A stretch of 64,000 nucleotides of DNA, taken from contig JAKLLB010000001.1 in assembly GCA_023150345.1 (NCBI GenBank), positions 116,224-180,223 of the forward strand, read 5' to 3'. Position 1 is the first letter of the stretch, and every line of letters begins with the position of its first letter. The notes under the pieces are model-generated. The model had not been told where the DNA came from and did no database searches. It saw only the letters and a list, made by a program, of their open reading frames with translations. A program made the translations under genes and the position numbers. Shown one piece after another: positions 33,227 to 48,742 of the stretch. Source of the DNA: Aquabacterium sp. (lineage in GTDB: Bacteria > Pseudomonadota > Gammaproteobacteria > Burkholderiales > Burkholderiaceae_C).

Positions 33227-34603
33227 CTACCGCACTGCTGCAGGTTCGCCGGCCAGGCGACGCACAGGCTCGCGCATCAGCACGAACTCCTCGGCGGCAG
33301 TGGGGTGCACGGCCACCGTGCGATCGAAGTCGCGCTTGGTGGCGCCGCACGTCAGCGCGACGGCCAGGCTCTGGACGATCTCCGGTGCATCGGCACCGAT
33401 CATGTGTACACCGAGCACACGGTCGCCCAGGCCATCGACCACCAGTTTCATGTAGGTGCGGGCCGCCGAACCGGCGAAGGCGGTTTTCATTGGCCGGAAC
33501 TCCGACTCGTAGATGTCGACCGGTCCGCGCTTCGCGGCCTCGGCTTCGCTCAGGCCCACGGTGGCGATGGGCGGGTCGGAGAAGACAGCCGACGCCACCG
33601 TGCGGTGGTCCACCCGAGTGGGGCGCCTGCCGAATTCCGTATCGGCGAACGCCCGGCCCTCGGCGATGGCCACCGGTGTGAGGTTCACACGCTGGGTCAC
33701 GTCTCCGATGGCCCAGATGCCCGGTGCGCTGGTGCGACTGTCCGCATCCACGGCAATGGCGCCCCGGCTGTCGAGTTGCACGCCGGCCACTTCGAGGCCC
33801 AGATCGGATGTGTTCGGTCGTCGACCCGTTGCGTTGAGCGCCGCTGACGCCTGGACTGCCGAACCATCGGCGCGGTGCAGCGTATAGCCGTCTGCTCCGT
33901 TGGACAACGACTCCAGGGCGACTCCCGCAGCCAGAGGGATGCCGCGGGCCGTCAACGCCTGCGCCAGGCGCTGGCGCAGGTCGAGGTCGAAGCCGCGCAG
34001 GGGCAGCGTGTCGCGAAAGGCGAGCGACACCTTCGCGCCGAGCCCGGCAAGGATGGTGGCGAACTCCACTGCGATGTAACCGCCTCCCACCACGAGCAGG
34101 CTGGCGGGCAAGACGCGCATGTCGAGCACGTCGTTGGATGTCATCGCGGTCGCGAGTCCCGGCAGGGCGTCGTGCGCGGGTGCGCCGCCGGTTGCTACCA
34201 ATATGCGCGTGGCGCGCACGATGCGGCTTCCGATCGCGACACGGCCCCCGCCCAGCAGTCGCGCGCGGCCTTGCGCCAGCTCGACGCCCGAGTCTGACAG
34301 CAGCTTGCGGTAGATGGCTTCGAGCCGGTCGATTTCGGCAGCCTTGGCGTCGGCCCAGCGGTGCATCTCGAACGACGGGTCGGTACCGCTCCAGCCATAG
34401 CTGCGTGCTTCATCGAACGCCTGTGCGTAGCCGGCCGCGTACATCATCAGCTTCTTGGGTACGCAGCCCCGAATGACGCAGGTGCCACCGGCACGGCTGG
34501 CCTCGGCGATGAGCACGCGCGCCCCATGGGCCGCCGCCCTCCGCGAGGCGGCCACGCCGCCCGAGCCGGCACCGAGTACCACGAGGTCGAAATCGTCGCT
34601 CAT
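33227..34603 (-). CDS. gor: Glutathione-disulfide reductase
   Basis: A 458-residue FAD/NADPH disulfide reductase. FAD motif VVLGAGSGGVAASRRAA, redox-active CxxxxC in GGTCVIRGCVPKKLMMYAAG (about residues 40-58), NADP-site glycine motif VVGGGYIAVEFA and the C-terminal catalytic His-Glu in HPTAAEEFVLMR mark it as Gor rather than lipoamide or mercuric reductase. It keeps glutathione reduced and so fits the adjacent metal/thiol-stress region, but no GTAAG-N16-CGTCTA promoter is seen upstream. Confidence 0.92.
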   Translation of the reverse strand: MSDDFDLVVLGAGSGGVAASRRAAAHGARVLIAEASRAGGTCVIRGCVPKKLMMYAAGYAQAFDEARSYGWSGTDPSFEMHRWADAKAAEIDRLEAIYRKLLSDSGVELAQGRARLLGGGRVAIGSRIVRATRILVATGGAPAHDALPGLATAMTSNDVLDMRVLPASLLVVGGGYIAVEFATILAGLGAKVSLAFRDTLPLRGFDLDLRQRLAQALTARGIPLAAGVALESLSNGADGYTLHRADGSAVQASAALNATGRRPNTSDLGLEVAGVQLDSRGAIAVDADSRTSAPGIWAIGDVTQRVNLTPVAIAEGRAFADTEFGRRPTRVDHRTVASAVFSDPPIATVGLSEAEAAKRGPVDIYESEFRPMKTAFAGSAARTYMKLVVDGLGDRVLGVHMIGADAPEIVQSLAVALTCGATKRDFDRTVAVHPTAAEEFVLMREPVRRLAGEPAAVR

Positions 34604-34689: not shown

Positions 34690-35820
34690 TCATGTGGAGG
34701 AGTCCGGTTGCGATGCGGCGTACCGCTGCACGAAGCGCCGATCGATCCAGGCTTTCCAGTGCCACACCCACTCCCCGCTCCAGGACCAACCCCCCCGAGT
34801 GGCCCACGCGTGGCGATGGCCTGAACTGATGAGGGACAGCGCCCGCTGCTGCGGACGCCAGGATGCCAGGGGCCGACCCTCGCAGAAGGCTCGCAGGTTG
34901 TGCGACAACGCGGGGCCGGCGCGTACCGCGTAAACACCCGACTTCGGGCGCGGGTCGGCGTAGGCCGCCACGTCGCCGGCGGCGAAGACCTGCGGGTGTG
35001 ACAGGCATTGCAGCTCGCGGTTGACCCGGATGAAGCCGCGGTCGTCGGTGGCAAGGCCGGATGCCGCTGGCCACGAGGGCGCGGCAGCGCCTGTCGCAAC
35101 GAGGCAGGCGTCGAAGTCGAGTGCCAGGGCTTCTTCCAGGTGAAGTCGGTGGGCGTCCAGGCCTGTCGCGCGCTGGCCACCGCGCCAGACGACACCGCGT
35201 TCAGCCAGCAGCGCCATGACCGACAACCGTGTGGCGTGCGGCATGCCCGGCAGCGGCAAGGCGTCGCTGCCGACGATGGTCAGGTGCAGGGCCCGACAGC
35301 CCTCACGAGACGCGCGGTACTGGATCGCAAACGCGAGTTCCACGCCCGCGGCGCCGCCGCCCAGCATCAGCAGGTCGAAGCGCCCGTGCGTGCGCCTGAT
35401 GCGATCGGACAACTTCGGCCAGGCCGCGATGAAGCGCTCGATCGGCCGCACCGCCAGCGCGTGCTCGGCTGCGCCGGGCAGGCCATCGAGCGCGGGCATG
35501 GGCCCGGTGTCGATGGACACCGTGTCGAAGGGCAACGCGGTGCCATCGGCGCATTGCACCACCTGAGCCCGCATGTCGAGTGCGACTGCCGACGTTTCGT
35601 GCAAGGCAATACCCGCACGACCGGCCAGCCGATCCAATGCAATGGCGCAGGCCTCGATCGGGTAGTGCCCGGCAATCCAGCCCGGCAGCATGCCGGAGTA
35701 GATCTGCCGCCGGTACGGAGATACGAGATGCACCTCCCATCCGGTCAGAGGCCGCTCGGCCAGGTCGGCCAGTACCCGGACGTGGGCATGGCCACCGCCA
35801 AGCAGAACCACGCGCTTCAC
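34690..35820 (-). CDS. TIGR03169-type pyridine nucleotide-disulfide oxidoreductase
   Basis: A 376-residue FAD-dependent oxidoreductase resembling the group found fused to or near selenide water dikinase. It opens VKRVVLLGGGHAHVRVLADL and has SPYRRQIYSGMLPGWIAGHY, LLMLGGGAAGVELAFAI and the FAD-closing VFAAGDVAAYADPRPKSGVY. GTG 35820 overlaps the stop of the transferase gene upstream. It is the last gene of a four-gene operon with two rSAM/selenodomain-associated transferases. Substrate unknown. Confidence 0.82.
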   Translation of the reverse strand: MKRVVLLGGGHAHVRVLADLAERPLTGWEVHLVSPYRRQIYSGMLPGWIAGHYPIEACAIALDRLAGRAGIALHETSAVALDMRAQVVQCADGTALPFDTVSIDTGPMPALDGLPGAAEHALAVRPIERFIAAWPKLSDRIRRTHGRFDLLMLGGGAAGVELAFAIQYRASREGCRALHLTIVGSDALPLPGMPHATRLSVMALLAERGVVWRGGQRATGLDAHRLHLEEALALDFDACLVATGAAAPSWPAASGLATDDRGFIRVNRELQCLSHPQVFAAGDVAAYADPRPKSGVYAVRAGPALSHNLRAFCEGRPLASWRPQQRALSLISSGHRHAWATRGGWSWSGEWVWHWKAWIDRRFVQRYAASQPDSST

Positions 35821-36479
35821 CGGGCCAGCCCCAGAGCCACCGACTGCGCAGGGGACAGCCGTGAGAGATCGGCGGGTTCGTCCAGGTCCCACAGGGTCTC
35901 GAGTTCGCACCAGGTGAGTCCCGCATCGCGGGCGCGCGCCCGGGTCTCGGCCATCACCGTGTCGGTGCTCCATCGCATGCCGGTGAACAGGTTCACCTGA
36001 GGCGTGCGCAGCCCGACCATGGCGTAGCCACCGTCCTCGGTCGGGTGAAAGACAGCGTCCGGGCCTGTGCGCAAGGCGTACGCTGCCGTGCGCAGGTGCG
36101 CCGGCGTGAGCGGTGGGCAGTCGGTGCCGATCAACAGCAGCGGGCCCTGGGCGCAGTGCATCCGAAACGCCATGTGCATGCGTTCGCCCAAATCGCCGCT
36201 GCACTGCGTGAGGCAGGGTATGCCACTCGTCTGGTTCAGGGCGCGAAAGAAGCGATGCCGGGGATCGGGTGTGCACCACAGCGTGACCGGGCCCAGGCGA
36301 GCAGCCTGGGCGGTGCGAACCGCCTGGCGGGTGAGGTGTCGCTGCAGCCGCGCGGCGCCTTCGGCCCCGAGCGCCGGAATCAGCCGCGTCTTGGCCAGTC
36401 CGGGGATGGGCGCCTTTGCCAGCACGGCCACCTGCACGCCGGCGATGTTGCCTGTCGCTTCAGCGCGGCCGGTAGCCAT
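35817..36479 (-). CDS. TIGR04282-type transferase (rSAM/selenodomain-associated 1)
   Basis: A 220-residue GT-A-like nucleotidyl/glycosyl transferase of the DUF2064 type: VQVAVLAKAPIPGLAKTRLI near the N terminus, then LLLIGTDCPPLTPAHL with its acidic metal site, and FHPTEDGGYAMVGLR. ATG 36479 is used; the gene begins inside the last codons of the TIGR04283 gene and its stop overlaps the next start, showing translational coupling. Family members co-occur with ArsS-type radical SAM proteins, as here. The acceptor is unknown. Confidence 0.85.
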   Translation of the reverse strand: MATGRAEATGNIAGVQVAVLAKAPIPGLAKTRLIPALGAEGAARLQRHLTRQAVRTAQAARLGPVTLWCTPDPRHRFFRALNQTSGIPCLTQCSGDLGERMHMAFRMHCAQGPLLLIGTDCPPLTPAHLRTAAYALRTGPDAVFHPTEDGGYAMVGLRTPQVNLFTGMRWSTDTVMAETRARARDAGLTWCELETLWDLDEPADLSRLSPAQSVALGLAR

Positions 36480-37149
36480 ACCGCACCGCCAATCGGCGCG
36501 GATCCGCGCCCAGGAAGTACGCGGCACGCAGCCGCCACATCAGGAAGACCGTGCGCCACACGCCGTGCCGCTCCCAGCGCCGCGCCGACGTGGTGACGCG
36601 CTCGCGCAGGCAGGCCGGATGGCCGTGTCGCTTGAGCAGGCGGCAGATGGCGATGTCCTCCATCAGCGGCAGTTCGGGGTACCCGCCGACGCGCCAGAAC
36701 AGCTCATGTTGCACGAACAGTGCCTGATCGCCCGTGGCGATGCCCGACCAGCGCGAGCGCAAGTTCATGGCCGAGCCCACGACCCTCAGGATGCTGCGGC
36801 TGCTGTCGATGTGCACATCGAACCGGCCCCACGCCCGGCCGCTCGAGATGGCCCTGTGGATCACGTGGTCGGCATCGGCTGGCAGGGCAGTGTCGGCATG
36901 CAGGAACAGCAGCACGTCGGCGGGACAAGCCGCGGCGCCCGCGTTCATCTGCGAGGCCCGCCCACGCGGTGCGACCAGGGCCAGATCGGCATGCTCACGC
37001 GCAATTGCGAAGGTGTCGTCCGCGCTGCCGCCGTCGACCACGACCACCCGCGCGCCGCGCCGCCGCAGTGGCTCCAGCGCACCCAGGCGTTCGGTCAGGG
37101 ATGCGGCCTCGTCCAGCACCGGAACGACGATACACAGCGCGGGCTTCAT
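36460..37149 (-). CDS. TIGR04283-type glycosyltransferase (rSAM/selenodomain-associated 2)
   Basis: A 229-residue family 2 glycosyltransferase: CIVVPVLDEAASLTERLGAL, VVVVDGGSADDTF and LLFLHADTALPADAD (DxD-like), with LPLMEDIAICRLLKRHG late. It matches the group associated with rSAM/selenodomain genes. ATG 37149 overlaps the stop of the fused VTT/reductase gene as ATGA. An arsenosugar or related glycolipid pathway is the best family-based guess. Confidence 0.87.
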   Translation of the reverse strand: MKPALCIVVPVLDEAASLTERLGALEPLRRRGARVVVVDGGSADDTFAIAREHADLALVAPRGRASQMNAGAAACPADVLLFLHADTALPADADHVIHRAISSGRAWGRFDVHIDSSRSILRVVGSAMNLRSRWSGIATGDQALFVQHELFWRVGGYPELPLMEDIAICRLLKRHGHPACLRERVTTSARRWERHGVWRTVFLMWRLRAAYFLGADPRRLAVRYGYRPR

Positions 37150-39293
37150 GCGCGCCTCCACGCATGGAAGCGCTCGACCCACGCCAGCAGCGCCTTCGGT
37201 GCGTGGGCGCGCTTCCACGCGCCGGCTGCGTACTTGTTGGCTTCGGCCAGCGTGGGGTAGGTGTGGATCGTGCCGAGGATCTTGTTCAGGCCGATGCCGT
37301 GCTTCATGGCCAGAACATACTCGGCCAACAAGTCGCCGGCATGCTCGCCGACGATGGTTGCGCCCAGGATGCGGTCCCTGCCCGGCACGGTGAGCACCTT
37401 CACGAACCCATGTGCCTCGCTGTCGGCGATCGCGCGGTCAAGGTCGTCCAGGCCGTACACCGTCACCTCATGAGGGATGCCTCGTTCCTTGGCCTCGATC
37501 TCGTTGAGGCCTACCCGCGCGACCTCGGGTTCCACGAACGTTGCCCAGGGGACGACGCGGTAGTCGGCGCTGAACTTCTTGAACGGATCGAACAGTGCGT
37601 TGACCGCGGCATACCAGGCCTGGTGCGCGGCCGTGTGCGTGAACTGATAGGGACCTGCGACATCGCCTGCGGCGTAGATGTTCGGGAAGTTGGTCTGCAG
37701 GTAGCCGTTGACCTCCACCGTGCGGCCCGTGGCCACGCCGAGCTCTTCCAGCCCATAGCCCGTGAGGTTGGCCGATCGGCCGACTGCGACCAGGATGGCG
37801 TCGAAGGCGATGCGCCGCTCCTGCCCATCCGCCTCGACGACGAGAGCCTTCTCGTGGCCACCGATCTCGACCCGCACCGCCTTGTGTCCCGTGAGCACCT
37901 CGATGCCCTCGGCCCGGAAGCGCGCAGCCACGAGCGCGGAAACGTCGGGGTCTTCGCGGGCCAGTATGCGCGGCAGCATCTCGACCTGCGTGACCTTGGA
38001 ACCCAGCCGCGCAAATGCCTGGGTGAGCTCGCTGCCGATGGGGCCGCCGCCCAGTACGACCAGCCGTTCGGGCCGCTCGCGCAGCTGCCAGACGTTGTCG
38101 GAGGTCAGTACGTCCACCTGGTCGAGGCCGGGTATCGGTGGCACGAGCGGGCGCGCACCGGCAGCGATCACGATGGCGCGGGTCGTCAACCGCTGCACGC
38201 GGCCATCGGCTTGGGTGACTTCCACCTCCCAAGGCGAGACGATGCGCGCCGCACCGTGCGCCACGTCCACGCCCAGCCTGGTGTAGCGCTCGACCGAGTC
38301 GTGAGGCTCGATGGTCTCGACGATGCGCTGCACGCGTTCCATCACCTCGCCGAAGTTGAACTCCACCTGCGCCGCGCGCATGCCGAACTCGGGGGCGCGC
38401 TGGATGTGCGAAAGGAATTTGGCCGAGCGGATCAGCGCCTTGGACGGCACGCAGCCGGTGTTCAGGCAGTCGCCGCCGAGCGCATGCTTCTCGACCAAGG
38501 TGACCCTGGCCTTGATGGCGGCCGCGATATAGGCGGTGACCAAGCCCGCCGAGCCGCCGCCGATGACGACGAGGTTGCGGTCGAAACGGGCGGGCCTGTC
38601 GAAGCGGGCGTAGACCTGGCGCGACTGAAAGATGCCGATCGCCTTCTTGGCAGCGAGAGGGAAGACCCCGAGCAACACGAGCGAGCCCAGCACGCCAGGT
38701 GAGATGATGCCGGCGAGCGAATCGATGCGTGCGATCTGCGTGCCGGCGTTCACGTACACCAGCGTGCCGGCCAGCATGCCCAGCTGGCTCACCCAGTAGA
38801 ACGTCCAGGTGCGCAGTGTCGTCAGACCCATTGCGAGGTTGACGAGGAAGAACGGGAACACGGGTACCAGGCGCAGCGTGAACAGGTAGAAACCGCCTTC
38901 GCGGGCGATGCCCGCGTTCAGCGAGGCCAGGCGATCGCCGAAGCGGGCCTGTACGGCATCGCGCAGTACCCAGCGCGCAGCCAGGAAAGCCAGCGTGGCA
39001 CCGATCGACGAGGCGAACGACACGACCAGCGTACCCCAAGCCAGTCCGAAAACGGCGCCGGCGGCCAGGGTCAGTGCTGCGGCGCCGGGCAGGGACAGCG
39101 CGGTAACGGCCACGTAGACGCCCAGGAATGCCAGCGCGGCGGCCCACGGCCTGGCGTCGCGCCAGGCGAGCAGCTCGGTCTGGTGGCTCTTGATGCTGTC
39201 CAGGCTCAGAACCTGGCCGAGATCCAGCGCGACGAACACGCCCACAACCGCCAGTGCCGACGCAACCACTACCCATCGCTTGTCCAGACGCAT
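37146..39293 (-). CDS. Fused VTT-domain membrane / disulfide-reductase protein
   Basis: A 715-residue two-part protein. Residues 1-220 form a multi-pass TVP38/VTT (DedA-like) membrane domain ([20 protein letters not shown], then [17 protein letters not shown]). From about 230 a mercuric-reductase-like FAD domain follows: [17 protein letters not shown], redox [16 protein letters not shown] (about 274-289), NAD-site [16 protein letters not shown] and C-terminal [12 protein letters not shown]. There is no mercury-binding N-terminal domain or C-terminal Cys pair. It is the first gene of the operon and has a near-perfect ECF-type promoter. ATG 39293 replaces an upstream in-frame start with no family match. 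Confidence 0.9.
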
Positions 39294-39344: not shown

Positions 39345-39372
39345 TAGACGCAGACGCAACGGTCTTTCTTAC
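39345..39372 (-). promoter_or_regulatory. ECF-type promoter of the reductase operon
   Basis: On the minus strand GTAAGA (39367-39372) and CGTCTA (39345-39350) are separated by exactly 16 bases, 52 bases before the reductase start. It matches the promoters of the bufferin operon and arsS in both hexamers and spacing. Confidence 0.7.
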
Positions 39373-39386
39373 GGCAGGTCGGTGGT

Positions 39387-39414
39387 GTAAGGACTCGGAC
39401 CCCAAGCCCGTCTA
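39387..39414 (+). promoter_or_regulatory. ECF-type promoter of the bufferin operon
   Basis: GTAAGG (39387-39392) and CGTCTA (39409-39414) are separated by 16 bases, about 95 bases before the DUF2282 start. It lies back to back with the minus-strand copy, only 14 bases apart, so one sigma factor could fire both operons. Confidence 0.7.
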
Positions 39415-39508
39415 TGCCTCACGTCGGACGTGTGGCCTCCCAGCCAACCGACTCGCCGGCGGGGCGTCGCCTCGCGGCGCTTTCCACTTGAATCACGCAG
39501 GAGATTTC

Positions 39509-39808
39509 ATGAACCACGCTACCACCAAGCTTCCGGCCGCCGCACTCGCACTTGCCCTGGGCGCGGCATTCACCGCGCTGCCGGCCGCGGCGCAATCAAG
39601 CGACAAGGAGAAGTGCTATGGCATTGCGCTGAAAGGCAAGAACGATTGCGCCGCCGGCCCGGGCACCACTTGTGCAGGTACGTCGAAGATCGACTATCAG
39701 GGCAATGCCTGGAGCTTCGTGGCCAAGGGGACCTGCGAGAAGACGGCCTCGAAGTCATCGCCCAGCGGTTTCGGCATGCTCGAGGCATTCAAGGAGAAGA
39801 AGGCCTGA
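39509..39808 (+). CDS. bufA1: DUF2282 bufferin-type copper-binding RiPP precursor
   Basis: A 99-residue secreted DUF2282 protein. A signal peptide ends near ALPAAAQ (residue 29), and the mature part holds four cysteines (36, 47, 55, 76) in [20 protein letters not shown] and FVAKGTCEK. Characterised relatives, the bufferins, are exported peptides whose cysteines are modified by a DUF692 enzyme and which bind copper. The gene order bufA-bufB-bufC-bufD here supports the same role. AGGAG precedes ATG 39509. Modification is inferred, not visible. Confidence 0.9.
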
Positions 39809-39848
39809 TCGGCAGGAGCTGCCCGCACCGATTGAGAGAGCCCGCGCC

Positions 39849-40763
39849 ATGCAGCCATCCCGCATTGCAGATCTGCCGCGTTCCCGATCGGCCCTGCGGG
39901 TCGGGCTGCCAGCCAAGGCTGGAATCGGGCTGAAGCCGCAGCACTTCCAGGAGGTGCTCGCGACGCGGCCCGAGCTGGGCTTCTTCGAGGTCCACGCCGA
40001 GAACTACATGGTCGACGGCGGACCGCTGCACCACTGGCTCGGACGCATCCGCGAGCACTACCCGCTGTCGTTGCACGGCGTGGGGCTCTCACTCGGAGCC
40101 GAGGTGCCGCCCGACGAGGCTCACCTCGACCGACTGGCTCGGCTGATCGACCGCTACCAGCCGGCATCGTTCTCGGAACACCTCGCGTGGTCCACCCATG
40201 GCGACGTCTTCCTGAACGACCTGCTGCCCGTGGCGTACGACAGCGAAACCTTCGCCCGCGTGTGCCGGCACATCGACCGGGTGCAGGAGCGATTGGGCCT
40301 GTGCATGCTGCTCGAGAATCCGTCGACCTATGTCGAGTTCGAGCGCTCGACGATGGACGAAGCCACGTTCCTGGCAGAGGTGGTGCAGCGCACCGGCTGC
40401 GGCCTGCTGCTGGACGTGACCAATGCGCATGTGTCCTGCACCAATCACGGGCGAGACGTGCGTGCCTACCTGGACGCCCTGCCGTTGGAAGCTGTGGGCG
40501 AAATCCACTTGGCCGGGTACGCCGAGGACACCGATGCGGCCGGCGATCCCCTGCTCATCGACCACCACGGCAGTGCGGTGGCCGAGATCGTCTGGGGGCT
40601 GTACGAGAACGTCATCGACCGCATCGGCGCTCGGCCGACGCTGCTCGAGCGCGACAACGATGTGCCTTCGTTCGGCACCTTGAAGGCCGAGGCGCTGCAG
40701 GCGCAAGCGCTGCTGGCTGCGCGAGGACCGGGTTGCCTGCATCCAGTCCGCAGCCACCTATGA
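39849..40763 (+). CDS. bufB1: DUF692 multinuclear iron oxidative enzyme (bufferin maturase)
   Basis: A 304-residue DUF692 (MNIO) enzyme, a TIM barrel with two or three irons that oxidises cysteines of its precursor peptide. Typical motifs: VGLPAKAGIGLKPQHFQEVL, FFEVHAENYM, LSLHGVGLSLG, SEHLAWS, LLENPSTYVEF, LLLDVTNAHVSCTNHG, EIHLAGYAED and LLIDHHGSAV; the His, Glu and Asp in these are the metal ligands of the family. The stop overlaps the DUF2063 start (ATGA). Confidence 0.92.
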   Translation: MQPSRIADLPRSRSALRVGLPAKAGIGLKPQHFQEVLATRPELGFFEVHAENYMVDGGPLHHWLGRIREHYPLSLHGVGLSLGAEVPPDEAHLDRLARLIDRYQPASFSEHLAWSTHGDVFLNDLLPVAYDSETFARVCRHIDRVQERLGLCMLLENPSTYVEFERSTMDEATFLAEVVQRTGCGLLLDVTNAHVSCTNHGRDVRAYLDALPLEAVGEIHLAGYAEDTDAAGDPLLIDHHGSAVAEIVWGLYENVIDRIGARPTLLERDNDVPSFGTLKAEALQAQALLAARGPGCLHPVRSHL

Positions 40764-41563
40764 GCATCCGCTTGCCATCGACCGTGCCCAGCCAGGCCAC
40801 CTTCGCGGCCGCACTGCTGGATCCGCTTGCCCCTTGCCCGCCTGGGCTGCGCGCCTGGAACGGCAGCGATCCGCTGCGCCGGCTGGCGGTCTATCGCAAC
40901 AACGTGGTGAGCTCGCTCATCGACGCGCTCGCCGACACCTACCCGGTGACACAGCAACTCGTGGGCAGCGAGTTCTTTCGCGCCATGGCCAGCGTCTTCG
41001 TTCGACAGCAGCCACCTGAGTCGCGCATCCTCGCGCACTATGGTGCGGCGTTACCTGCTTTCGTCGCCGGCTTTGCGCCGGCCGCGCCGCTGCCGTACCT
41101 TCCAGACGTGGCGCGGCTCGAGTTTGCGCGCCTGCGGGCCCTGCATGCCGGCGAAGCCGAGCCGATTTCCGAAGCCGCATTGACGCGGGCCCTCGCAGAT
41201 CCGCCTGCACTGGCGCGCTCGCATCTGGTGTGGCATCCGTCGCTGGCGGTGATCGAGTCGCCTCATGCCGTGGTGTCGCTGTGGGCAGCACATCAGACCG
41301 AAGGCGAGATCACCCCGGTGGAGATCGATTGCGCGGAGCAGGCCATCGTCTTGCGCGAGGGTCTGGATGTACTGGTTCTGCCGGTCGATCCGGGCACGGC
41401 ATGTTTCACCGCCCGCACGCTGGCGGGCGAGGCGTTTTCGAATGCGGCCGAAGCCGCCACTGCCATTGACGCGTCGTTCGACCTGGGCGCTGCACTGTCG
41501 TTGCTCCTGCAACGCCGCGCGCTCCTCGAACTGCGCATACATGCCGGGCCAGCACTCGGCTGA
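40760..41563 (+). CDS. bufC1: DUF2063 RiPP-recognition partner of the DUF692 enzyme
   Basis: A 267-residue DUF2063 protein. The N-terminal family core is clear (LRRLAVYRNNVVSSLIDALA, then YPVTQQLVGSEFFRAMASVF and FVAGFAPAAPLPYLPDVARL). These proteins accompany DUF692 enzymes and are thought to present the precursor peptide. ATG 40760 overlaps the maturase stop. Confidence 0.9.
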   Translation: MSIRLPSTVPSQATFAAALLDPLAPCPPGLRAWNGSDPLRRLAVYRNNVVSSLIDALADTYPVTQQLVGSEFFRAMASVFVRQQPPESRILAHYGAALPAFVAGFAPAAPLPYLPDVARLEFARLRALHAGEAEPISEAALTRALADPPALARSHLVWHPSLAVIESPHAVVSLWAAHQTEGEITPVEIDCAEQAIVLREGLDVLVLPVDPGTACFTARTLAGEAFSNAAEAATAIDASFDLGAALSLLLQRRALLELRIHAGPALG

Positions 41564-41573
41564 GGAGCGATTC

Positions 41574-42110
41574 ATGGGCCGCGCTACGATGTCCAACCTC
41601 GATGCCAACCCCGCCGGGGCGGGTGGGATCGCCGGTGTCCTCACCTGGGCCCAGGGCTGCATGGCCCGAATTCCCTACACCGTGGTCGCCCTGCTGGCGC
41701 GCTTTTCCATCGCAGCGGTGTTCTGGAACTCGGGCCAGACCAAGGTCAGCGGCTTCGCCCTCAACATCCTCACCGGTGAGTTCGAACTTGGCTGGCCGCG
41801 ATTGTCCGAATCGGCGCTGGCGCTGTTCCAGGACGAGTACAAGCTACCGCTACTCGCGCCCGCCGTGGCGGCGCCGATGGCGGCCTTCGCCGAGCATCTG
41901 TTCCCGCTGCTGTTGCTGCTTGGGCTGGCCACGCGCTTTTCGGCACTGGCGCTGCTGGCCATGACGGCGGTGATTCAGTTCCTCGTCTACCCTGGGGCTT
42001 ATGCCACGCATGGCACATGGGCGGCGCTGCTGTTGCTGCTGATGCGGCAGGGGCCCGGGGCCGTGTCGCTCGATCATTGGATCGCCAGCCGCCGGCACAC
42101 ACGGCGCTGA
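41574..42110 (+). CDS. bufD: DoxX-family membrane protein (BufD-like)
   Basis: A 178-residue DoxX-type protein with four hydrophobic segments (for example TVVALLARFSIAAVFWNSG and LFPLLLLLGLATRFSALALL). GAGGAG at 41562-41567 precedes ATG 41574. DoxX proteins are regular fourth genes of bufferin operons; the role is undefined, possibly respiratory or redox support. Last gene of the operon. The 42111-42249 gap has no gene. Confidence 0.85.
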   Translation: MGRATMSNLDANPAGAGGIAGVLTWAQGCMARIPYTVVALLARFSIAAVFWNSGQTKVSGFALNILTGEFELGWPRLSESALALFQDEYKLPLLAPAVAAPMAAFAEHLFPLLLLLGLATRFSALALLAMTAVIQFLVYPGAYATHGTWAALLLLLMRQGPGAVSLDHWIASRRHTRR

Positions 42111-42249
42111 GGCGTCGCTGGCCACGGCCAGCTGCTGCTCGTCTCGTCTTGCCGCCATCCGAGGGTGAGGCCCTGCGTTGCGCGATGCTCGGTCGTTCAA
42201 AGCACGCCGGGCTGGGGCAGGGCGCTCGTGTTCATGGCGAGCGTCCGTT

Positions 42250-43443
42250 TCAGGGCAGCGCGGTGAGCGGATGAAGCGCGAGCCCGGCGATCGCCGCGAC
42301 CACCACGATCGCGGGCTCTGGGACCTTCTTGAAGCGCCAAAGCACCCCGGCGGTGAACAGTGCGAGCACAGCAGTGGCGAAATCGGATATCGACCGTTGA
42401 CCGATGACGACCACAGCCCCGGCGATGGCGCCGATCGCGGCGGCGGTCACCCCATCGACGAAGGCGACGACGCCCGGATGCTTGCCATGCTTCTTGAAGT
42501 ACGGTGCGGGAAAGATGGTGAGCAGGTAGCAGGGCAGGAAGGTGGCAACGGCAGCGACCACAGCGCCCCAGAAGCCCTGTACCAAGTAGCCGATGAAACC
42601 GGTGGTGATGACGACCGGGCCGGGCGTGATCATGGCCACGGCAACGGCGTCGACGAACTGGCGGTCGTTGAGCCAGTGATGTTCCTGGACGACGCCGCTG
42701 TAAAGGAAGGGCACGATGGCCAGACCACTGCCGAAGACGAAGCTGCCGGCATAGGCGAAGAAGGCGCCGATTTGCGCCAGCTGCGGCCAGTCCGTCGAGC
42801 CCGCTGCTGCTGCGGCCAGCATTGGCGCCGAGGCCGCCACGCCATGCAGCCGCCCTCCAAACCAACTGGCGGGTGGCGCGCGAACCAGCCACACCAGCAC
42901 CCCCGCGCCGAGGAAGAGCCAGACGATCTCGGACTTGGTGATCACCGTGACGGCCGCGCTCACGCCAAAGATGGCCCACAGCAGTGGATCCTTGCCGATG
43001 TTCTTGCTGGTGAGCTTGTAGGCACTCGTCGCAATGATGCCGATCACCGCTGCGCCCACGCCGTAGAAGACGGATTGCATCCAGGCGATGCCACCATAGG
43101 CCACGTAGGCCGCGCCGATGGCCACCACGATGAGGAACGATGGCAAGACGAAGGCCAGGCCCGCGAGCGTGGCGCCGGCGACGCGGTAGTGCACGTAGCC
43201 GAGGTAGATCGCCAGTTGCGCCGCCAGTGGGCCAGGCATCAGCTGGGCCAGCACCATGCCTTCCTTGTAGTCGGCCTCGCCGATCCAGCGCCGCTTCTCG
43301 ACCAGATCGCGGTACATGTAGCCGACCAGCGCAACCGGCCCTCCGAAGCCCCAGGTCCCAAGTGCCATCATGTAGCGCACGAGTTCCCAGAGGGTGTAGG
43401 GGGTGAGGGACGCGGGCGGGGCCGCGGGCTCGGGGTGAGTCAT
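42250..43443 (-). CDS. chrA: Chromate transporter ChrA
   Basis: A 397-residue CHR-family chromate efflux protein of the long, two-domain type. N-terminal half: GTWGFGGPVALVGYMYRDLV, EGMVLAQLMPGPLAAQLAIY. C-terminal half: GSGLAIVPFLYSGVV, DAVAVAMITPGPVVITTGFI. These paired GFGGP and MxPGP motifs mark both halves. The start overlaps the chrB stop (ATGA), so chrB and chrA are co-translated. Confidence 0.95.
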   Translation of the reverse strand: MTHPEPAAPPASLTPYTLWELVRYMMALGTWGFGGPVALVGYMYRDLVEKRRWIGEADYKEGMVLAQLMPGPLAAQLAIYLGYVHYRVAGATLAGLAFVLPSFLIVVAIGAAYVAYGGIAWMQSVFYGVGAAVIGIIATSAYKLTSKNIGKDPLLWAIFGVSAAVTVITKSEIVWLFLGAGVLVWLVRAPPASWFGGRLHGVAASAPMLAAAAAGSTDWPQLAQIGAFFAYAGSFVFGSGLAIVPFLYSGVVQEHHWLNDRQFVDAVAVAMITPGPVVITTGFIGYLVQGFWGAVVAAVATFLPCYLLTIFPAPYFKKHGKHPGVVAFVDGVTAAAIGAIAGAVVVIGQRSISDFATAVLALFTAGVLWRFKKVPEPAIVVVAAIAGLALHPLTALP

Positions 43444-44432
43444 CGTTCAGTGCCTTTGGGGTTGCGCTTGCGGCGCCCGGATTCGCGCTCGAAGTGCGCA
43501 AGCAGCGAGTCGAGCACGGTGCACATCTCGTCGAGCAAGGCGTTGTCGTCGGAAAGACGCACGTGGGCGCCCGACAGCACGGCCTCGAGGCCGCGGGCCT
43601 CGGCCATCGGCTCGCCGCCGACGTCGAGTGTGTGCACGATTTCGGCCAGCCGCCGCAGCGCGGCGTGGCCTTCCAGCCCGAAGCTGGCCATCAGCGTTTC
43701 GAATGTGACGCGATTGCCGACGTGCGTGAACGTGCCGCCGTCGAAGTCGAACCCCAGTGCGGTCTTGGGGCAGTCCGATGGCTGGACCAGCCACCGAAAG
43801 TGTGCCTCTGGGTCGATGTAGCGGCGGATCAGCCAGGCGCTGGCGACGCGGTCGATCCAGGGTCGTCGGCGCGTTGCCCACGTGCGCCCGCGGTAATCGG
43901 CGGCGTCCAGGCGACGGACATGCCCGGATCCGGGCTGCGGCTCGCCGGGGGAGAGCAGTTCGGCGATGCGGTTGCCGAACTCCGTCCATGCCGCCTCGGC
44001 TTCCAGACTCGCTTCGCCGGGAAAGAAGTCGATTGCGCGCACGGCGTCGAACTCACGCTGCAGCCTGCGCTGCATGCGTGCGAGCTCGGGGGCAGCCAAC
44101 CCGGCCAGGCCTCGATTGGCCTCCTTCCAGGACTTTCGCAGCTCGGCGTAGTCGTCGCTGCGATCGAACAGCTGGCGGTAGGCGTCGGCTTCCTCTGCGG
44201 AACGTGGCTGCACGGACATGAGCCAGGCGTTGCCGCCCTCGGCGGTGCACTCGTCGGCAAGCTCCTGCAGTGCGCGTTCGTGATCGGCGTGTGCGGGCAG
44301 CAGGTAGGCGCCGTCGCGCAGGGCCATGCAACCCAATGCCTTCAGGGCGCGCCACACGCGCATGCGGGCGGTGGCGCCGGACGTGGGCAGCGACACGACC
44401 AGAAGGTACCAGGTTGGCACGGGCAGTGACAT
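43440..44432 (-). CDS. chrB: Chromate resistance regulator ChrB
   Basis: A 330-residue ChrB protein, the chromate-responsive regulator paired with ChrA. The N-terminal part (TWYLLVVSLPTSGATARMRV, then WRALKALGCMALRDGAYLLP) is the winged-helix-like domain; the C-terminal part (RPWIDRVASAWLIRRYIDPE, then ARFRWL-like and FTHVGNRVTFETLMASFGL) is the ChrB C-terminal domain. ATG 44432 is chosen; an in-frame ATG 13 codons earlier lies over the palindrome and inside the divergent gene's leader. Confidence 0.92.
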   Translation of the reverse strand: MSLPVPTWYLLVVSLPTSGATARMRVWRALKALGCMALRDGAYLLPAHADHERALQELADECTAEGGNAWLMSVQPRSAEEADAYRQLFDRSDDYAELRKSWKEANRGLAGLAAPELARMQRRLQREFDAVRAIDFFPGEASLEAEAAWTEFGNRIAELLSPGEPQPGSGHVRRLDAADYRGRTWATRRRPWIDRVASAWLIRRYIDPEAHFRWLVQPSDCPKTALGFDFDGGTFTHVGNRVTFETLMASFGLEGHAALRRLAEIVHTLDVGGEPMAEARGLEAVLSGAHVRLSDDNALLDEMCTVLDSLLAHFERESGRRKRNPKGTER

Positions 44433-44443
44433 GTAGAGAAGTA

Positions 44444-44455
44444 TACTGAACAGTA
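44444..44455. promoter_or_regulatory. Candidate ChrB operator
   Basis: Perfect palindrome TACTG-AA-CAGTA inside the 28-base gap between chrB and the divergent MFS gene. Direct GTAGAGA repeats flank it. The site could serve both divergent promoters. Confidence 0.5.
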
Positions 44456-44460
44456 GAGAT

Positions 44461-45726
44461 ATGGACACCATGGCCTCTTGGTGCTCGACATTGCTGCTGC
44501 CCCGAGGCGTCGATCCCGCTGCGCTGCCGTTGCTCGCCGCGCGGGCGCTGCGGGCGTTTGCTGACGGCTACATGGCGGTCTTGCTGCCGGCCTACCTGCT
44601 CGCGGTGGGTTTGGGCACGCTGGAGGTCGGTGTCATCGCGACGACGACCATGCTGGGTTCCGCCCTGGCAACCATCGCTGTCGGCACTTGGGGTCATCGA
44701 TTCGGCTCGGGGCACCTGCTGCGGGCCGCCGCGTTGCTGATGGCCGCTACCGGAGTCGGGTTCGCCGGGTTTGCGTCGTTCTGGCCCTTGTTGCTGGTGG
44801 CCTTCGTCGGCACGCTCAACCCGAGTTCGGGCGACGTGAGCGTGTTCCTTCCACTCGAGCACGCCCGTCTGGCTGGCGCAGCCAGTGGTCATGCACGAAC
44901 GGCCCTGTTCGCGCGCTACAGCGTGGTCGGCGCCGTGTGCGCTGCTGCCGGCGCACTGGCCGCTGGCTTGCCCGACTGGTTGTCCAGCCACACCGGGTCG
45001 GCTGCGGTGGTCATGCTGCGAGCGATGTTCGTGCTCTATGCCGCGATCGGCCTGGCGGTCTGGTTGCTTTATCGGCGGCCCGCCATCGAGCCGCCGGGCG
45101 GCGAAGTGCCGGGCGCGGCGGTGGCCCTGGGCCCGTCGCGGCGCATCGTTGTGCGACTGGCCGCGCTGTTCAGCATCGATGCGTTTGCCGGCGGACTGGT
45201 CGTGAACTCGTTGCTGGCGCTGTGGTTGCTTCAGCGCTTCGGTCTGTCGCTGGCACAAGCCGGCGCGTTCTTCTTCTGGGCGGGCCTGCTGAGTGCGGCC
45301 TCGCAACTGGTGGCGCCGTGGGTGGCACAGCGCATCGGTCTGCTCAACACCATGGTGTTCACGCACATTCCGGCCAACGTCTGCCTCATTCTGGCGGCAA
45401 TGGCATCGAACCTGGCCACTGTGCTGGTGCTGCTGTTCGTGCGCAGTGCCTTGTCGCAGATGGACGTGCCCACGAGAACCGCATACGTGATGTCGGTGGT
45501 GACGCCGCAGGAGCGACCGGCAGCGGCGGGCTTCACGGCCGTACCCCGGAGCCTGGCCGCCGCACTGAGCCCGACGATCAGCGGCGCCCTGCTGGCCGCA
45601 GGCTACGTTGCGCTGCCGCTGGTGGCCTGCGGCGTGCTCAAGATCGCCTACGATCTGGCGCTGTGGCGGGGCATGCGCGGCGTGCTCGTGCCTGAGCAGC
45701 ACGACCATGCAGTCGCCGACGACTGA
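44461..45726 (+). CDS. MFS transporter linked to chromate resistance
   Basis: A 421-residue MFS protein with about twelve membrane segments (AARALRAFADGYMAVLLPAY, then TTTMLGSALATIAVGTWGHR; GGLVVNSLLALWLLQRFGLS). It diverges from chrB over 28 bases that contain the palindrome, and MFS genes of this type often accompany chrBA. Probably efflux. ATG 44461 or 44470 could be the start. Confidence 0.83.
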   Translation: MDTMASWCSTLLLPRGVDPAALPLLAARALRAFADGYMAVLLPAYLLAVGLGTLEVGVIATTTMLGSALATIAVGTWGHRFGSGHLLRAAALLMAATGVGFAGFASFWPLLLVAFVGTLNPSSGDVSVFLPLEHARLAGAASGHARTALFARYSVVGAVCAAAGALAAGLPDWLSSHTGSAAVVMLRAMFVLYAAIGLAVWLLYRRPAIEPPGGEVPGAAVALGPSRRIVVRLAALFSIDAFAGGLVVNSLLALWLLQRFGLSLAQAGAFFFWAGLLSAASQLVAPWVAQRIGLLNTMVFTHIPANVCLILAAMASNLATVLVLLFVRSALSQMDVPTRTAYVMSVVTPQERPAAAGFTAVPRSLAAALSPTISGALLAAGYVALPLVACGVLKIAYDLALWRGMRGVLVPEQHDHAVADD

Positions 45727-45804
45727 GGCCCACGCAGGGCCAGCGCAGTTGCCGACACCGCGCGGGCATTGATGGCGTGCCTCGCGGCTGGACGATGGCC
45801 TGCG

Positions 45805-46506
45805 TCATCGGGTCGCGAGGACGTGCTCTCGCAACTCGTCGAACCCAGAGACCACGAAGGTGTAGTCCATGTTCGGCTCGGGTTCGGGCGGGCCTTCAGG
45901 TCCCCATTCGTCGGGCCTGCGCACAAACGCGGTCTTGAAGCCCGCGGCATGCGCCGCGTTGAGGTCGAAGTTGTGGCAGGCCACCATCAGGATGTCCTGC
46001 GGCGGCAGACCGATCCAGCGTGCGGCGGTGGTGTAGGCCTGCGCGTGCGGTTTGTACACACCGATCATTTCGCAGGAGACGATCGCGTCCCAATCCAGCG
46101 CGTTGCGTCGCGAGACGCTCATCACCAGGGCCGTGGGCAACATGGTGAACGACACCACCGGTACGGCGCTGCGCAAGATGGCCAGCGCCGGGGCGAAGTC
46201 GGACCAGGCGTCGAGTTGGTACCAGACGCTCCAGATGGCCTCGCGCTGCGTGGCGTTCAGGTCTCCCAGACCGTAGGCAGACAGGGTATCGCGGAGGCTC
46301 TCGCGGTGCGCGTCGTCCATGTTGAACGCGGGATGCACTTGTCCCACGATGCGCTTCATGGCACGCCGCCGCCAGTCGTTGGCCACCTGGTCCAGGTCCA
46401 GACCCGCAACGCGTTCGCCGCACACGGCAGCCAGGCGCGCAACGATGCCGCCATGCCAGTCGAGCACGGTGCCGCCGGTGTCGAAGCTCAGAGCGCGGAT
46501 TGTCAT
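45805..46506 (-). CDS. HAD-superfamily hydrolase (haloacid dehalogenase type II-like)
   Basis: A 233-residue HAD hydrolase of the type II 2-haloacid dehalogenase group. Nucleophile motif SFDTGGTVLDWHGG near residue 9 (Asp in FDTGGT), motif II Ser in VVSFTMLPTAL, motif III Lys in GVYKPHAQAY, and the terminal CHNFDLNAA. The usual FDxFGT(V/L) is changed to FDTGGTV, so substrate preference may differ. It lies at the end of the arsS operon strand and its start overlaps a small upstream open frame as ATGA. Confidence 0.85.
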   Translation of the reverse strand: MTIRALSFDTGGTVLDWHGGIVARLAAVCGERVAGLDLDQVANDWRRRAMKRIVGQVHPAFNMDDAHRESLRDTLSAYGLGDLNATQREAIWSVWYQLDAWSDFAPALAILRSAVPVVSFTMLPTALVMSVSRRNALDWDAIVSCEMIGVYKPHAQAYTTAARWIGLPPQDILMVACHNFDLNAAHAAGFKTAFVRRPDEWGPEGPPEPEPNMDYTFVVSGFDELREHVLATR

Positions 46507-46784
46507 GCGGTACTCCCGAGTTCCGGCTTCCAGCCGTAGAGGTGTGCACGGGCGCTGGCATCGAAACGGCCGGCAGGCAGGCCGACGGCTGGCCGAGGGG
46601 GCGCCATGCCCAGTATCCGGTTTGCCCGACTGCGTGCCAACTCCACCTGATGCAGGCTGCAGACCCCAAGCGCAGCCTGCGAGCCTGGGCGAAGACGGCG
46701 GGCGTCGCGAACGTGGCCGACAGGGTGCGCGACAGGGCGGCGCCGCAGAGCAGGGATCGCCAGCGTGACACGGGATTCTCCCAA
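46503..46784 (-). CDS. Uncertain small ORF between arsS and the HAD gene
   Basis: A 93-residue frame starts 13 bases after the arsS stop and ends overlapping the HAD start (ATGA), which looks like an operon gene. The protein (for example SARAHLYGWKPELGSTA at its end) matches no family I know. A competing frame starting at a GTG near 46772 has a signal-peptide-like beginning (SRWRSLLCGAALSRTLSATF). One may be real, or an old gene may have shifted frame. Confidence 0.3.
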   Translation of the reverse strand: MGESRVTLAIPALRRRPVAHPVGHVRDARRLRPGSQAALGVCSLHQVELARSRANRILGMAPPRPAVGLPAGRFDASARAHLYGWKPELGSTA

Positions 46785-46797
46785 GGGGGGAGGGCGT

Positions 46798-47766
46798 TCA
46801 GTGGTCGAGTGCGCCGCCGCAGCTCGAGCCCTGGCCGGCGGTGCAGCCGAAGCAATGGTCGGCCACCCGGATCGGTTGGTCGTCCAGGTCGGCGGCGGTG
46901 ATGTCGGTGATGTGCGTGCGCCGGCGCTCGGATGCGTGGATGGGCAGCCCCAACTGCTGATTGAAGTCGCAGTCGTACAGGTAGCCCTGCCAATCCACGC
47001 TGAGCAGACTTCGGCACATCACCTGTTCGAGGTTCGCCTCGCGGTGGGCGCCACGCAGCATGTCCATGTAGCGATTGAACTGCCCCTTGGACACCAGCAT
47101 CGAGCCGAAACGCTGGATGGGCATGTTGGCCAGCGTGAACAAGCTGTTGAACGCGATGCCGAAGCGGGCGCCGAGGTGGCGCTTGTAGTCGTGCTCCAGC
47201 GCGTCCTGCGCGGGTGGCAGGCTGGGGCCCTGGGGGTTGTAGACGAGGTTGAGCACCAGGCCGGTGTCGGCTTGGCCATAGCCCAGTGCGTTCAGGCGCT
47301 GCAGGCCGCGGATGCTGGCGTCGAACACGCCCTTGCCGCGCTGCCGGTCGACGTTGTCTTCCAGGTAGCACGGCATCGAGGCCACGACCTCGACACGATG
47401 CAGGGCGAGGAAGCCAGCCAGGTCGTCACGGCCGGGCTCCTCCAGGATGGTGAGGTTGCACCGATCGATGACCTTGACGCCGCGGCTGCAGGCGGCGGTG
47501 ACCAGGTGTCGGAAGTGCGGGTTGAGCTCCGGGGCGCCGCCGGTCAGGTCCAGTGTGCGCACGTCCGGGCTGTCGGTCAGGAAGGCGATCACGGCATCCA
47601 CCGTTTCGCGCGACATTTCCTCGGCGCGGTTCGGTCCGGCGTTGACGTGGCAGTGCTGGCAGCTCTGGTTGCAGCGGTAGCCGAGGTTGACCTGGAGGGT
47701 CGAGATGGATCTGCGGCGCAGAGGCGGGAAGTCGGACCGGGCAAGCAGGGGCAGGGTGGGGTGCAT
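46798..47766 (-). CDS. arsS: ArsS-type radical SAM/Cys-rich protein
   Basis: A 322-residue radical SAM protein of the arsenosugar biosynthesis (TIGR04167) family. The [4Fe-4S]/SAM motif is C32-C36-C39 in GYRCNQSCQHCH, followed by LDLTGGAPELNPHF. The C-terminal Cys-rich tail CFGCTAGQGSSCGGALDH (residues 305-322) is the family hallmark. Some relatives carry selenocysteine in this region; here all codons are Cys. It has its own GTAAG-N16-CGTCTA promoter and diverges from the ECF sigma gene. The two associated transferases are in the operon at 34.7-39.3 kb. Confidence 0.9.
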   Translation of the reverse strand: MHPTLPLLARSDFPPLRRRSISTLQVNLGYRCNQSCQHCHVNAGPNRAEEMSRETVDAVIAFLTDSPDVRTLDLTGGAPELNPHFRHLVTAACSRGVKVIDRCNLTILEEPGRDDLAGFLALHRVEVVASMPCYLEDNVDRQRGKGVFDASIRGLQRLNALGYGQADTGLVLNLVYNPQGPSLPPAQDALEHDYKRHLGARFGIAFNSLFTLANMPIQRFGSMLVSKGQFNRYMDMLRGAHREANLEQVMCRSLLSVDWQGYLYDCDFNQQLGLPIHASERRRTHITDITAADLDDQPIRVADHCFGCTAGQGSSCGGALDH

Positions 47767-47793
47767 GGTGGATTCAGCCGTGGGATGATGTCG

Positions 47794-47821
47794 TAGACGC
47801 GGTGACCGGTGAACAACTTAC
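47794..47821 (-). promoter_or_regulatory. ECF-type promoter of arsS
   Basis: Minus-strand GTAAGT (47816-47821) and CGTCTA (47794-47799) with a 16-base spacer, 28 bases before the arsS start. Third instance of this promoter in the window, next to an ECF sigma gene. Confidence 0.65.
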
Positions 47822-47891: not shown

Positions 47892-48533
47892 ATGCCCATG
47901 ACGAACAGCCGCCATGACCACACCTCGGGCGAAAGACCGTCCGAGTCCATGCAGGGCATCAGCGCACAGGCGCTGCTGTCGCTGCGCGCCGACATGCTGC
48001 GCTTTGCGCAACTGCAGCTGCGCGATCATGCTGCTGCCGAAGACATGGTGCAGGAATCGATCGAGGCGGCGCTGAGGAAGTCGTCGTCGTTCACCGGCCA
48101 GTCCACGCTGAAGACCTGGGTGTTCGCCATCTTGCGCAACCGCATCGTGGATCACCTGAGACAGGCCTCGCGCACGGTGAACCTGTCCAGTCTCGTCGAC
48201 GACGACGAGGATTGGCAGGAGCGCATGGAGGCGATGTTCGACGAACGCGGGCATTGGCGTGATGGGCCTCGGCCTGCGGCGTGGCCCGACCCCGAGACAT
48301 CGCTGCAGTCTCGCCAGTTCTGGGCGGTGTTCGAAGCCTGCCTCGGCCACCTGCCGCCGGCCACCGGGCGCGTCTTCATGATGCGCGAGTTCCTGGGCTT
48401 CGAGTCCGACGAGATCTGTCGGCAGTTGTCCATCACCACGAGCAACTGCCACGTGATCCTGCACCGTGCCCGCATGAAGCTGCGCGCCTGCATGGACACG
48501 GGTTGGGGCAAACCGGGGGGCGCGCCATGTTGA
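47892..48533 (+). CDS. ECF-subfamily RNA polymerase sigma factor
   Basis: A 213-residue ECF sigma factor. Region 2 is visible at about residues 30-100 (RFAQLQLRDHAAAEDMVQES, then STLKTWVFAILRNRIVDHLR) and region 4 at about 140-200 (LPPATGRVFMMREFLGFESD, then SITTSNCHVILHRARMKLRA), separated by an acidic linker. ATG 47892 is used; an ATG two codons later is possible. It overlaps a zinc-finger anti-sigma-like gene and is the best candidate to recognise the three GTAAG-N16-CGTCTA promoters. Confidence 0.9.
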   Translation: MPMTNSRHDHTSGERPSESMQGISAQALLSLRADMLRFAQLQLRDHAAAEDMVQESIEAALRKSSSFTGQSTLKTWVFAILRNRIVDHLRQASRTVNLSSLVDDDEDWQERMEAMFDERGHWRDGPRPAAWPDPETSLQSRQFWAVFEACLGHLPPATGRVFMMREFLGFESDEICRQLSITTSNCHVILHRARMKLRACMDTGWGKPGGAPC

Positions 48534-48742
48534 GCTGCAAGGAAGTGGCGCGTCTGTGTTCCGAGGAACTCGAGCGTCCGCTGGGCTTGGGCGAGCGCAC
48601 GGCGTTGCGGGTGCACCTGATGATGTGCAGGGGCTGCACCAACTACCGGATTCAGCTCGGTACCCTGCGGCGGGCCATGCAGGCCTATGCGCAGGGCAAG
48701 GCCGGCCCGGATGGCGATCAGGCTCCGAAGAACGAGCCCTGA
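48527..48742 (+). CDS. Zinc-finger (zf-HC2) anti-sigma-like protein
   Basis: A 71-residue protein with the HCC zinc-finger of anti-sigma factors: H30-N3-C34-N2-C37 in VHLMMCRGC, plus Cys4 and Cys11, and a following helix QLGTLRRAMQAYAQ. It overlaps the sigma gene by seven bases, the normal arrangement for a sigma/anti-sigma pair. No membrane segment, so it would be a soluble, perhaps redox-sensitive, regulator. 48743-48823 holds the hox operon leader. Confidence 0.82.
   Translation: MLSCKEVARLCSEELERPLGLGERTALRVHLMMCRGCTNYRIQLGTLRRAMQAYAQGKAGPDGDQAPKNEP

Follow-up and report, generated by a model that had tools for sequence, protein, structure and literature searches.

Three promoter-like sites suggest an ECF sigma factor regulon joining bufferin and arsenosugar-type genes in Aquabacterium sp.

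Described ECF regulons and the three sites

The closest described counterpart of the system treated here, three promoter-like sites in a 64,000-nucleotide (nt) stretch of Aquabacterium sp. DNA (contig JAKLLB010000001.1; the whole stretch is called the window), is the regulon of the extracytoplasmic function (ECF) sigma factor sigmaE of Neisseria meningitidis. SigmaE (NMB2144) is restrained by MseR (NMB2145), for which the zinc-site cysteines and Cys4 are required (excerpts of PMC2893595). The same excerpts give the sigmaE consensus as GTMAGBWTT, 12-13 nt, CGTCTAAH, name NMB2140-2145 and msrA/msrB as targets, describe NMB2140 as DoxX-like, and report a transcription start mapped for gonococcal msrA/msrB at this -35/-10 pair. 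Four further neisserial genes were added without this promoter (excerpts of PMC3240639).

In the window, the exact form GTAAG-N17-CGTCTA is present at 39345..39372 (minus strand) before an operon with a VTT-reductase gene and glycosyltransferase genes, at 39387..39414 (plus strand) before a bufferin operon, and at 47794..47821 (minus strand) before arsS. A preliminary description of the sequence had named these three sites, and their coordinates and strands proved exact. The 16-base spacing given there is indeed equal in all three; counted as the gap between GTAAG and CGTCTA it amounts to 17 nt, i.e., 16 plus the variable sixth base of the -35 box. Every site is oriented toward its own gene. 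Measured from the initial G of the -35 box, the start codon of the VTT-reductase gene is 79 nt away, that of bufA 122 nt and that of arsS 55 nt. The first two stand back to back, and 14 nt separate their GTAAG boxes. By eye, the three spacers show little mutual resemblance, so the sites are no obvious copied segment.

The genome assembly that was searched has 4.58 Mb in 251 contigs and is 94% complete. The scan for the motif that the preliminary description had proposed returned three exact matches, all of them the sites of the window, and none for the reversed pattern used as control. With a relaxed gap of 15-18 nt and CGWCTA as second box, the same three sites were the only matches (reversed control: 11). 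Allowing one mismatch gave 12 matches versus 50 in the control, the other nine being dispersed over other contigs. In the window, six matches with at most two mismatches compare with 2.2 expected by shuffling and two of 100 shuffles reach six, hence the loose form is weak. As the mismatch-tolerant counts are not clearly above control, the exact form of the motif was taken as the informative one.

Counted from the initial G of GTAAG, CGTC is reached after 22 nt in the window and after 21-22 nt in the excerpted neisserial consensus. The core -35 and -10 boxes and the spacing match at all three sites, the outer bases (WTT, AH) partly. The regulators, likened by description, are also built alike, with an ECF sigma gene followed by that of a zinc anti-sigma factor with an Hx3Cx2C-type site and Cys4. 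The neisserial genes NMB2140-2143, beyond the DoxX-like first one, we take to be a bufferin operon, and sigmaE itself is presumably a member of the TIGR02943 family. The arrangement differs: according to the neisserial excerpts, sigma and anti-sigma genes lie there inside the autoregulated target operon and msrA/msrB is the other direct target, whereas in the window the pair stands apart, beside arsS, an autoregulatory site is missing, and arsS and the VTT-reductase/glycosyltransferase operon come in as further putative targets. We conclude that the three sites are very probably promoters belonging to a single ECF regulon of the sigmaE/MseR kind.

Two other systems were compared. In Caulobacter, the ECF sigma factor SigF (ECF16) likewise runs DUF2282/DUF692/DUF2063/DoxX (bufferin) operons under metal stress; unlike in the window, its promoter is GTAACC-N16-CGAA and its negative regulator is a six-helix DUF1109 protein (excerpts of PMC3511200). 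A regulon of the SigF (ECF16) type was therefore rejected, since the boxes differ and the anti-sigma factor of the window is a zf-HC2 protein of 71 amino acids (aa), not of the membrane type. In Cupriavidus metallidurans, the copper-induced bufferin-type operon gigPABT adjoins an ECF sigma and anti-sigma pair, rpoQ-rsqA, as in the window; there, however, the anti-sigma factor is predicted to be membrane-bound and sigma control of gigPABT is unproven (excerpts of PMC10304878). The term arsenosugar is absent from the main text of that paper. The known arsenosugar pathway (TIGR04167, TIGR04282, TIGR04283) has the same enzyme families as the window, and no sigma control of it was found in the literature searched.

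Sites in the genus and at other arsS loci

For the genus, 21 genomes were used. Exact sites were found in six of them (three in the window genome, four in G019, three in G020 and one each in G012, G006 and G015), and 11 of the 13 fall in the window genome, G019, G020 and G012; those of G006 and G015 are near none of the query genes. The eight sites of G019, G020 and G012 precede arsS (two), bufA (three), the VTT-reductase gene (one), doxX (one) and a DUF547 gene (one), which leads the TIGR04283 genes. Boxes upstream of the VTT-reductase gene are also present in G019 (spacer 17) as well as in G020 and locus L083 (spacer 16), and those upstream of bufA in G012, G019, G020 and L083. Exact boxes precede arsS in G019 and G020, with spacers barely like that of the window: by eye, the window and G020 spacers of this site are identical at four of 17 positions and every base of the boxes is kept. 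Compared with G019, the bufA spacer of the window differs at five of 17 positions and that of the divergent site at three of 17. The arsS sites of G019 and G020 resemble each other, and likewise their ArsS proteins (93% identity). A site with one mismatch lies upstream of the methylthioadenosine (MTA) phosphorylase gene in G020. In total, the genus has 11 arsS copies above the cut-off, of which three have an exact site and one, the second copy of G020, has GTAAC for GTAAG; upstream of the other seven no site was found at up to two mismatches. G006 has a bufferin operon divergent from one arsS copy, but no site there.

Behind arsS, genes of a phosphonate-type ABC transporter (PhnD- and PhnE-like) were seen in G020 and G019 (L071:3600-6291, L073:10623-11576, L075:14773-16679), the PhnC-like gene of G020 being below the cut-off. 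This transporter is a candidate for the uptake of an arsenate-like substrate.

For a wider view, arsS loci were collected by a genome scan, from which the best 80 of 591 confirmed matches were kept; L081 was left out because it belongs to the same genome as G020, leaving 79. No other locus has an ArsS more than 90% identical to the copies of the genus. The pattern GTAAG-N16/17-CGWCTA has 18 matches on both strands of these loci, 10 of them in the 254 windows upstream of query genes. Five control patterns (two with wrong spacing, one reversed, one swapped, one permuted) gave no upstream match, and 0, 0, 6, 0 and 6 matches overall.

A promoter matrix was built solely from the 13 sites of the window and the genus. 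With it, the region upstream of arsS exceeded the 1% null at 17 of the 79 loci (0.8 expected). None of 60 column-permuted matrices reached 17 (largest value 3), and four wrong spacings gave 0-3. In 13 of the 17 loci the site lies 53-65 nt from the start codon, at a distance similar to the 55 nt of the window. The 17 are not near-copies, the closest pair of ArsS proteins being 83% identical; L149, L153 and L155, mutually more than 95% identical, are not among them. An earlier run of the matrix with a slightly different null placed 22 of 78 arsS loci above the threshold. At the arsS loci the -10 box varies between CGTCTA, CGACTA, CGACCA, CGTCAA and others. Before the VTT-reductase gene, five of 42 windows were above the null and one of 60 permuted matrices equalled this, which is suggestive only; before TIGR04283 genes none of 54 windows was above it. 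Some of 30 bufferin loci have a matrix match before bufA and many have none.

These data also bear on two alternatives. The boxes could form an operator of a DNA-binding regulator instead of a sigma promoter, as two boxes at fixed spacing could also be a protein-binding site; the boxes are, however, non-palindromic, oriented toward the gene and, at the 13 loci just named, held at a narrow range of distances from arsS, and they equal the excerpted neisserial -35/-10 pair with its mapped gonococcal start, so that we regard this explanation as scarcely credible. It is also highly improbable that the bufferin site alone is a true sigma promoter and that those before arsS and the VTT-reductase gene arose by chance or are remnants. 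Experimental precedent was found for control of a bufferin-type operon alone, the window has six matches at up to two mismatches with 2.2 expected, and in the genus the site is missing at seven of 11 copies of arsS. Against this stand the exact sites ahead of arsS and the VTT-reductase gene in G019 and G020, and the recurrence of the arsS promoter at 13 loci in nearly the same place.

Sigma and anti-sigma genes are both located within the fetched flank (up to 10 kb) in 16 of the 79 arsS loci. A bufferin gene is in the flank of five (L083, L125, L131, L134 and L151), three of which combine arsS, the bufferin operon, the VTT-reductase, sigma and anti-sigma genes in a single cluster, namely L131 (Thiobacillus), L134 (Contendobacter) and L151 (Burkholderiaceae). 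In Pseudogulbenkiania subflava (L125), back-to-back CGACTA sites (one mismatch) lie between the genes of an MTA phosphorylase and an Nterm_to_SelD-type protein, and a further site precedes the TIGR04282 gene. ArsS attaches a deoxyadenosyl group, the adenine of which would later be removed; MTA phosphorylase would therefore fit chemically.

Side observations were made at two loci. In an arsS locus of the Chromatiales (L099:3077-4057), a DUF3179 gene begins directly after a CGACTA-type site. At L158, back-to-back promoter-like sites with GGTCTA as -10 box (6372, minus strand; 6389, plus strand) were noticed, one of them upstream of a gene in which visual inspection hints at Asn-Pro-Cys repeats in a different reading frame, perhaps a further MNIO-type precursor.

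In 300 genomes of the order, TGTAAG-N17-CGTCTA has 19 matches. Two lie in the window and two others precede bufferin-type genes. The exact site of L173, from the order sample, stands before a small membrane protein gene, DoxX-like by eye, behind which comes that of a BufB relative (34% identity); this is the gene order expected of the neisserial operon. Matrix matches within TIGR02943 sigma genes looked like sites but were set aside: in the seven examined (L190:1940, L191:1601, L201-L204, L223), TGTAAGGAA...CGACCAA consists of in-frame codons for a conserved Cys-Lys-Glu stretch. The comparison of 35 real with 5-11 shuffled matrix matches thus overstates the case. Such a codon-derived, promoter-like string in sigma genes is a trap for genome-wide motif scans.

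Genes behind the sites and the sigma/anti-sigma pair

On the minus strand, arsS (46798..47766), encoding a radical SAM arsenosugar enzyme, matches TIGR04167 with 464 bits (cut-off 300) and is divergent from the sigma/anti-sigma pair. The other minus-strand site (39345..39372) is followed by a gene whose product joins a VTT membrane domain to a pyridine-nucleotide disulfide reductase (37146..39293; PF09335, PF07992 and PF02852). Then follow, also on the minus strand, two arsenosugar-type glycosyltransferase genes, one of family TIGR04283 (36460..37218; 259.7 bits, cut-off 182) and a cofC-like one of TIGR04282 (35817..36527; 193.4 bits, cut-off 134). They are followed by an ORF (34690..36279) with an Nterm_to_SelD-type oxidoreductase (TIGR03169, 367.9 bits, cut-off 310); as the match begins at residue 157, its true start is probably near 35811. 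The gene of a glutathione-reductase-like protein (33227..34603, minus strand; NF004776, 536.9 bits, cut-off 480) is possibly the last of this operon. With ArsS, TIGR04282 and TIGR04283 proteins all over the cut-off, the protein families taken to mark the ArsS pathway are present. By their NCBIfam names, arsS (TIGR04167) and the two glycosyltransferase-like genes (TIGR04283, TIGR04282) would belong to one pathway, arsenosugar biosynthesis. The regulon therefore seems to join two functions instead of the three named in the preliminary description.

On the plus strand, the bufferin precursor gene bufA (39509..39808) matches DUF2282 (PF10048) strongly with 83.5 bits (cut-off 22.4) and is under the cut-off of the BufA2 model (25.6 versus 60); four Cys are seen by eye. 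It is followed by the genes of the maturase BufB, an MNIO protein (39849..40763; NF050167, 374.7 bits, cut-off 310), a DUF2063 partner protein (40760..41563; PF09836) and a DoxX-family protein (41574..42110; PF07681). The latter two are over the Pfam cut-offs and under those of the HvfC and HvfX models. The make-up of a bufferin cluster is thus present, i.e., a DUF2282 precursor with four Cys, MNIO, DUF2063 and DoxX. Between the bufferin operon and arsS, a chromate transporter gene chrA and a ChrB-type gene (42250-44471) lack the promoter motif.

The ECF sigma gene with a zinc-finger partner, reported earlier to start at 47892 beside arsS, was confirmed by profile for both families. The sigma gene (47892..48533, plus strand) begins with ATG at 47892 and its product belongs to TIGR02943 (251.5 bits, cut-off 162.2); the anti-sigma factor of 71 aa (48527..48742, plus strand; NF052368, 72.6 bits, cut-off 50) is a zf-HC2 protein with, by eye, Cys4 and H30-x3-C34-x2-C37 in its translation. 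It is the only NF052368 match of the genome. Across 90 loci, Hx3Cx2C and the N-terminal Cys are kept in 28 of 28 anti-sigma matches (one a duplicate), which is expected in part, since the matches were collected by similarity. Among the genus anti-sigma loci fetched, a sigma factor at least 80% identical to that of the window was found only in the window genome, G019 and G020. In G020 (exact boxes, spacer 16) and in Roseateles puraquae, L082 (one mismatch), a site lies upstream of a short gene located ahead of the sigma gene.

The short proteins encoded between promoter and sigma gene in G020 (L071:1968-2423) and Roseateles puraquae (L082:9372-9875) share an ARPHAFIVN stretch. They have no Pfam or NCBIfam match, and none was seen beside the sigma gene of the window.

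Several observations weigh against one regulon read by this sigma factor. Upstream of the window sigma gene no promoter site was found and autoregulation is not visible. G012 has the bufA site with a sigma factor merely 46% identical to that of the window, contrary to a strict one-to-one link. The genus arsS copies without a site belong here too. At the arsS loci, the promoter is present in eight of 21 with versus 14 of 57 without a sigma or anti-sigma gene in the flank (Fisher's exact test, p 0.18). In 31 genomes hand-picked from the 79, TIGR02943 was over the cut-off in 15 of 21 promoter-bearing versus seven of 10 promoter-lacking ones. Sigma presence was rejected as a predictor of the promoter, as no significant association was obtained and TIGR02943 is simply common in these 31 genomes. 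Finally, none of the query genes is near the remaining 15 of the 19 order matches, hence a lone match elsewhere means little.

The promoters might accordingly be read by another ECF sigma factor of the genome, the one beside arsS controlling something else. Four weaker ECF matches to TIGR02943 exist elsewhere in the genome, the sigma gene beside arsS is not itself preceded by a site, and across loci the promoter shows no significant association with TIGR02943. On the other side, the boxes equal the excerpted consensus of a sigmaE with a zinc anti-sigma factor of like build, the genome has a single sigma factor over the TIGR02943 cut-off, in G020 and Roseateles puraquae the short gene ahead of the sigma gene has a site, and sigma and anti-sigma genes flank arsS in the 16 loci mentioned above. 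We therefore judge another reader unlikely and infer that the sigma factor of the window itself reads the three sites. A sigma tree, in which arsS-linked and bufferin-only labels cluster (three changes versus a shuffled mean of 8.6), was not used as evidence; many of its branches are weak, 25 of 51 rows are unlabelled, and merging of identical rows left some labels incomplete.

Proposed regulon and its meaning

The release mechanism and the transcript units proposed here are inferred. In unstressed cells, the zinc anti-sigma factor of 71 aa would hold the sigma factor. Oxidation of, or metal attack on, its cysteines would free the sigma factor, which would direct RNA polymerase to GTAAG-N17-CGTCTA and switch on three transcripts. 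The first would provide the bufferin operon, i.e., a periplasmic copper-chelating peptide and its maturation, the second arsS. The third would be the VTT-reductase/glycosyltransferase/oxidoreductase operon, which may serve the same arsenosugar-type pathway as arsS. One ECF regulon over the bufferin operon, the VTT-reductase operon and arsS, as first put forward from the sequence, is the best reading and is supported by the comparative data.

The preliminary description presented the combination as one not known to be described. This does not apply to its bufferin part: sigma control of bufferins has a precedent in the neisserial sigmaE/MseR regulon, whose DoxX-containing operon we take for a bufferin operon. 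What is new is that the regulon would also cover arsS and the VTT-reductase/glycosyltransferase operon, an extension supported by the sites in related species and at other arsS loci. A 2025 landscape paper describes sigma genes in bufferin clusters, and additional conserved genes at extremely low proportions (excerpts of PMC12452194); in its main text, ArsS, VTT and pyridine nucleotide have no occurrence. Among the literature matches listed, including PMC12452194, PMC13097082 and PMC12159101, none links arsenosugars or ArsS to an ECF sigma factor, and no paper among the matches listed links DUF692, MNIO or DUF2282 with arsenosugar and selenium.

Two metal-related natural-product systems are thereby connected, a connection not met in the literature searched. 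The small neisserial regulon is extended to a module seen, going by record titles, in beta- and gammaproteobacteria, and the organoarsenic pathway gains a candidate regulator and hence a testable physiological setting. Tentatively, and with more doubt than confidence, we suggest that in many beta- and gammaproteobacteria the ArsS pathway may serve less to answer arsenic than to form one arm of an envelope stress response sensed by cysteines and zinc, the other arm being the copper-chelating bufferin, while the VTT-fused reductase would keep thiols or arsenicals reduced at the membrane. If this were true, the cell would produce, alongside a metallophore of the ribosomally synthesized and post-translationally modified peptide class, either an arsenosugar or another adenosyl-derived sugar related to it as a stress metabolite.

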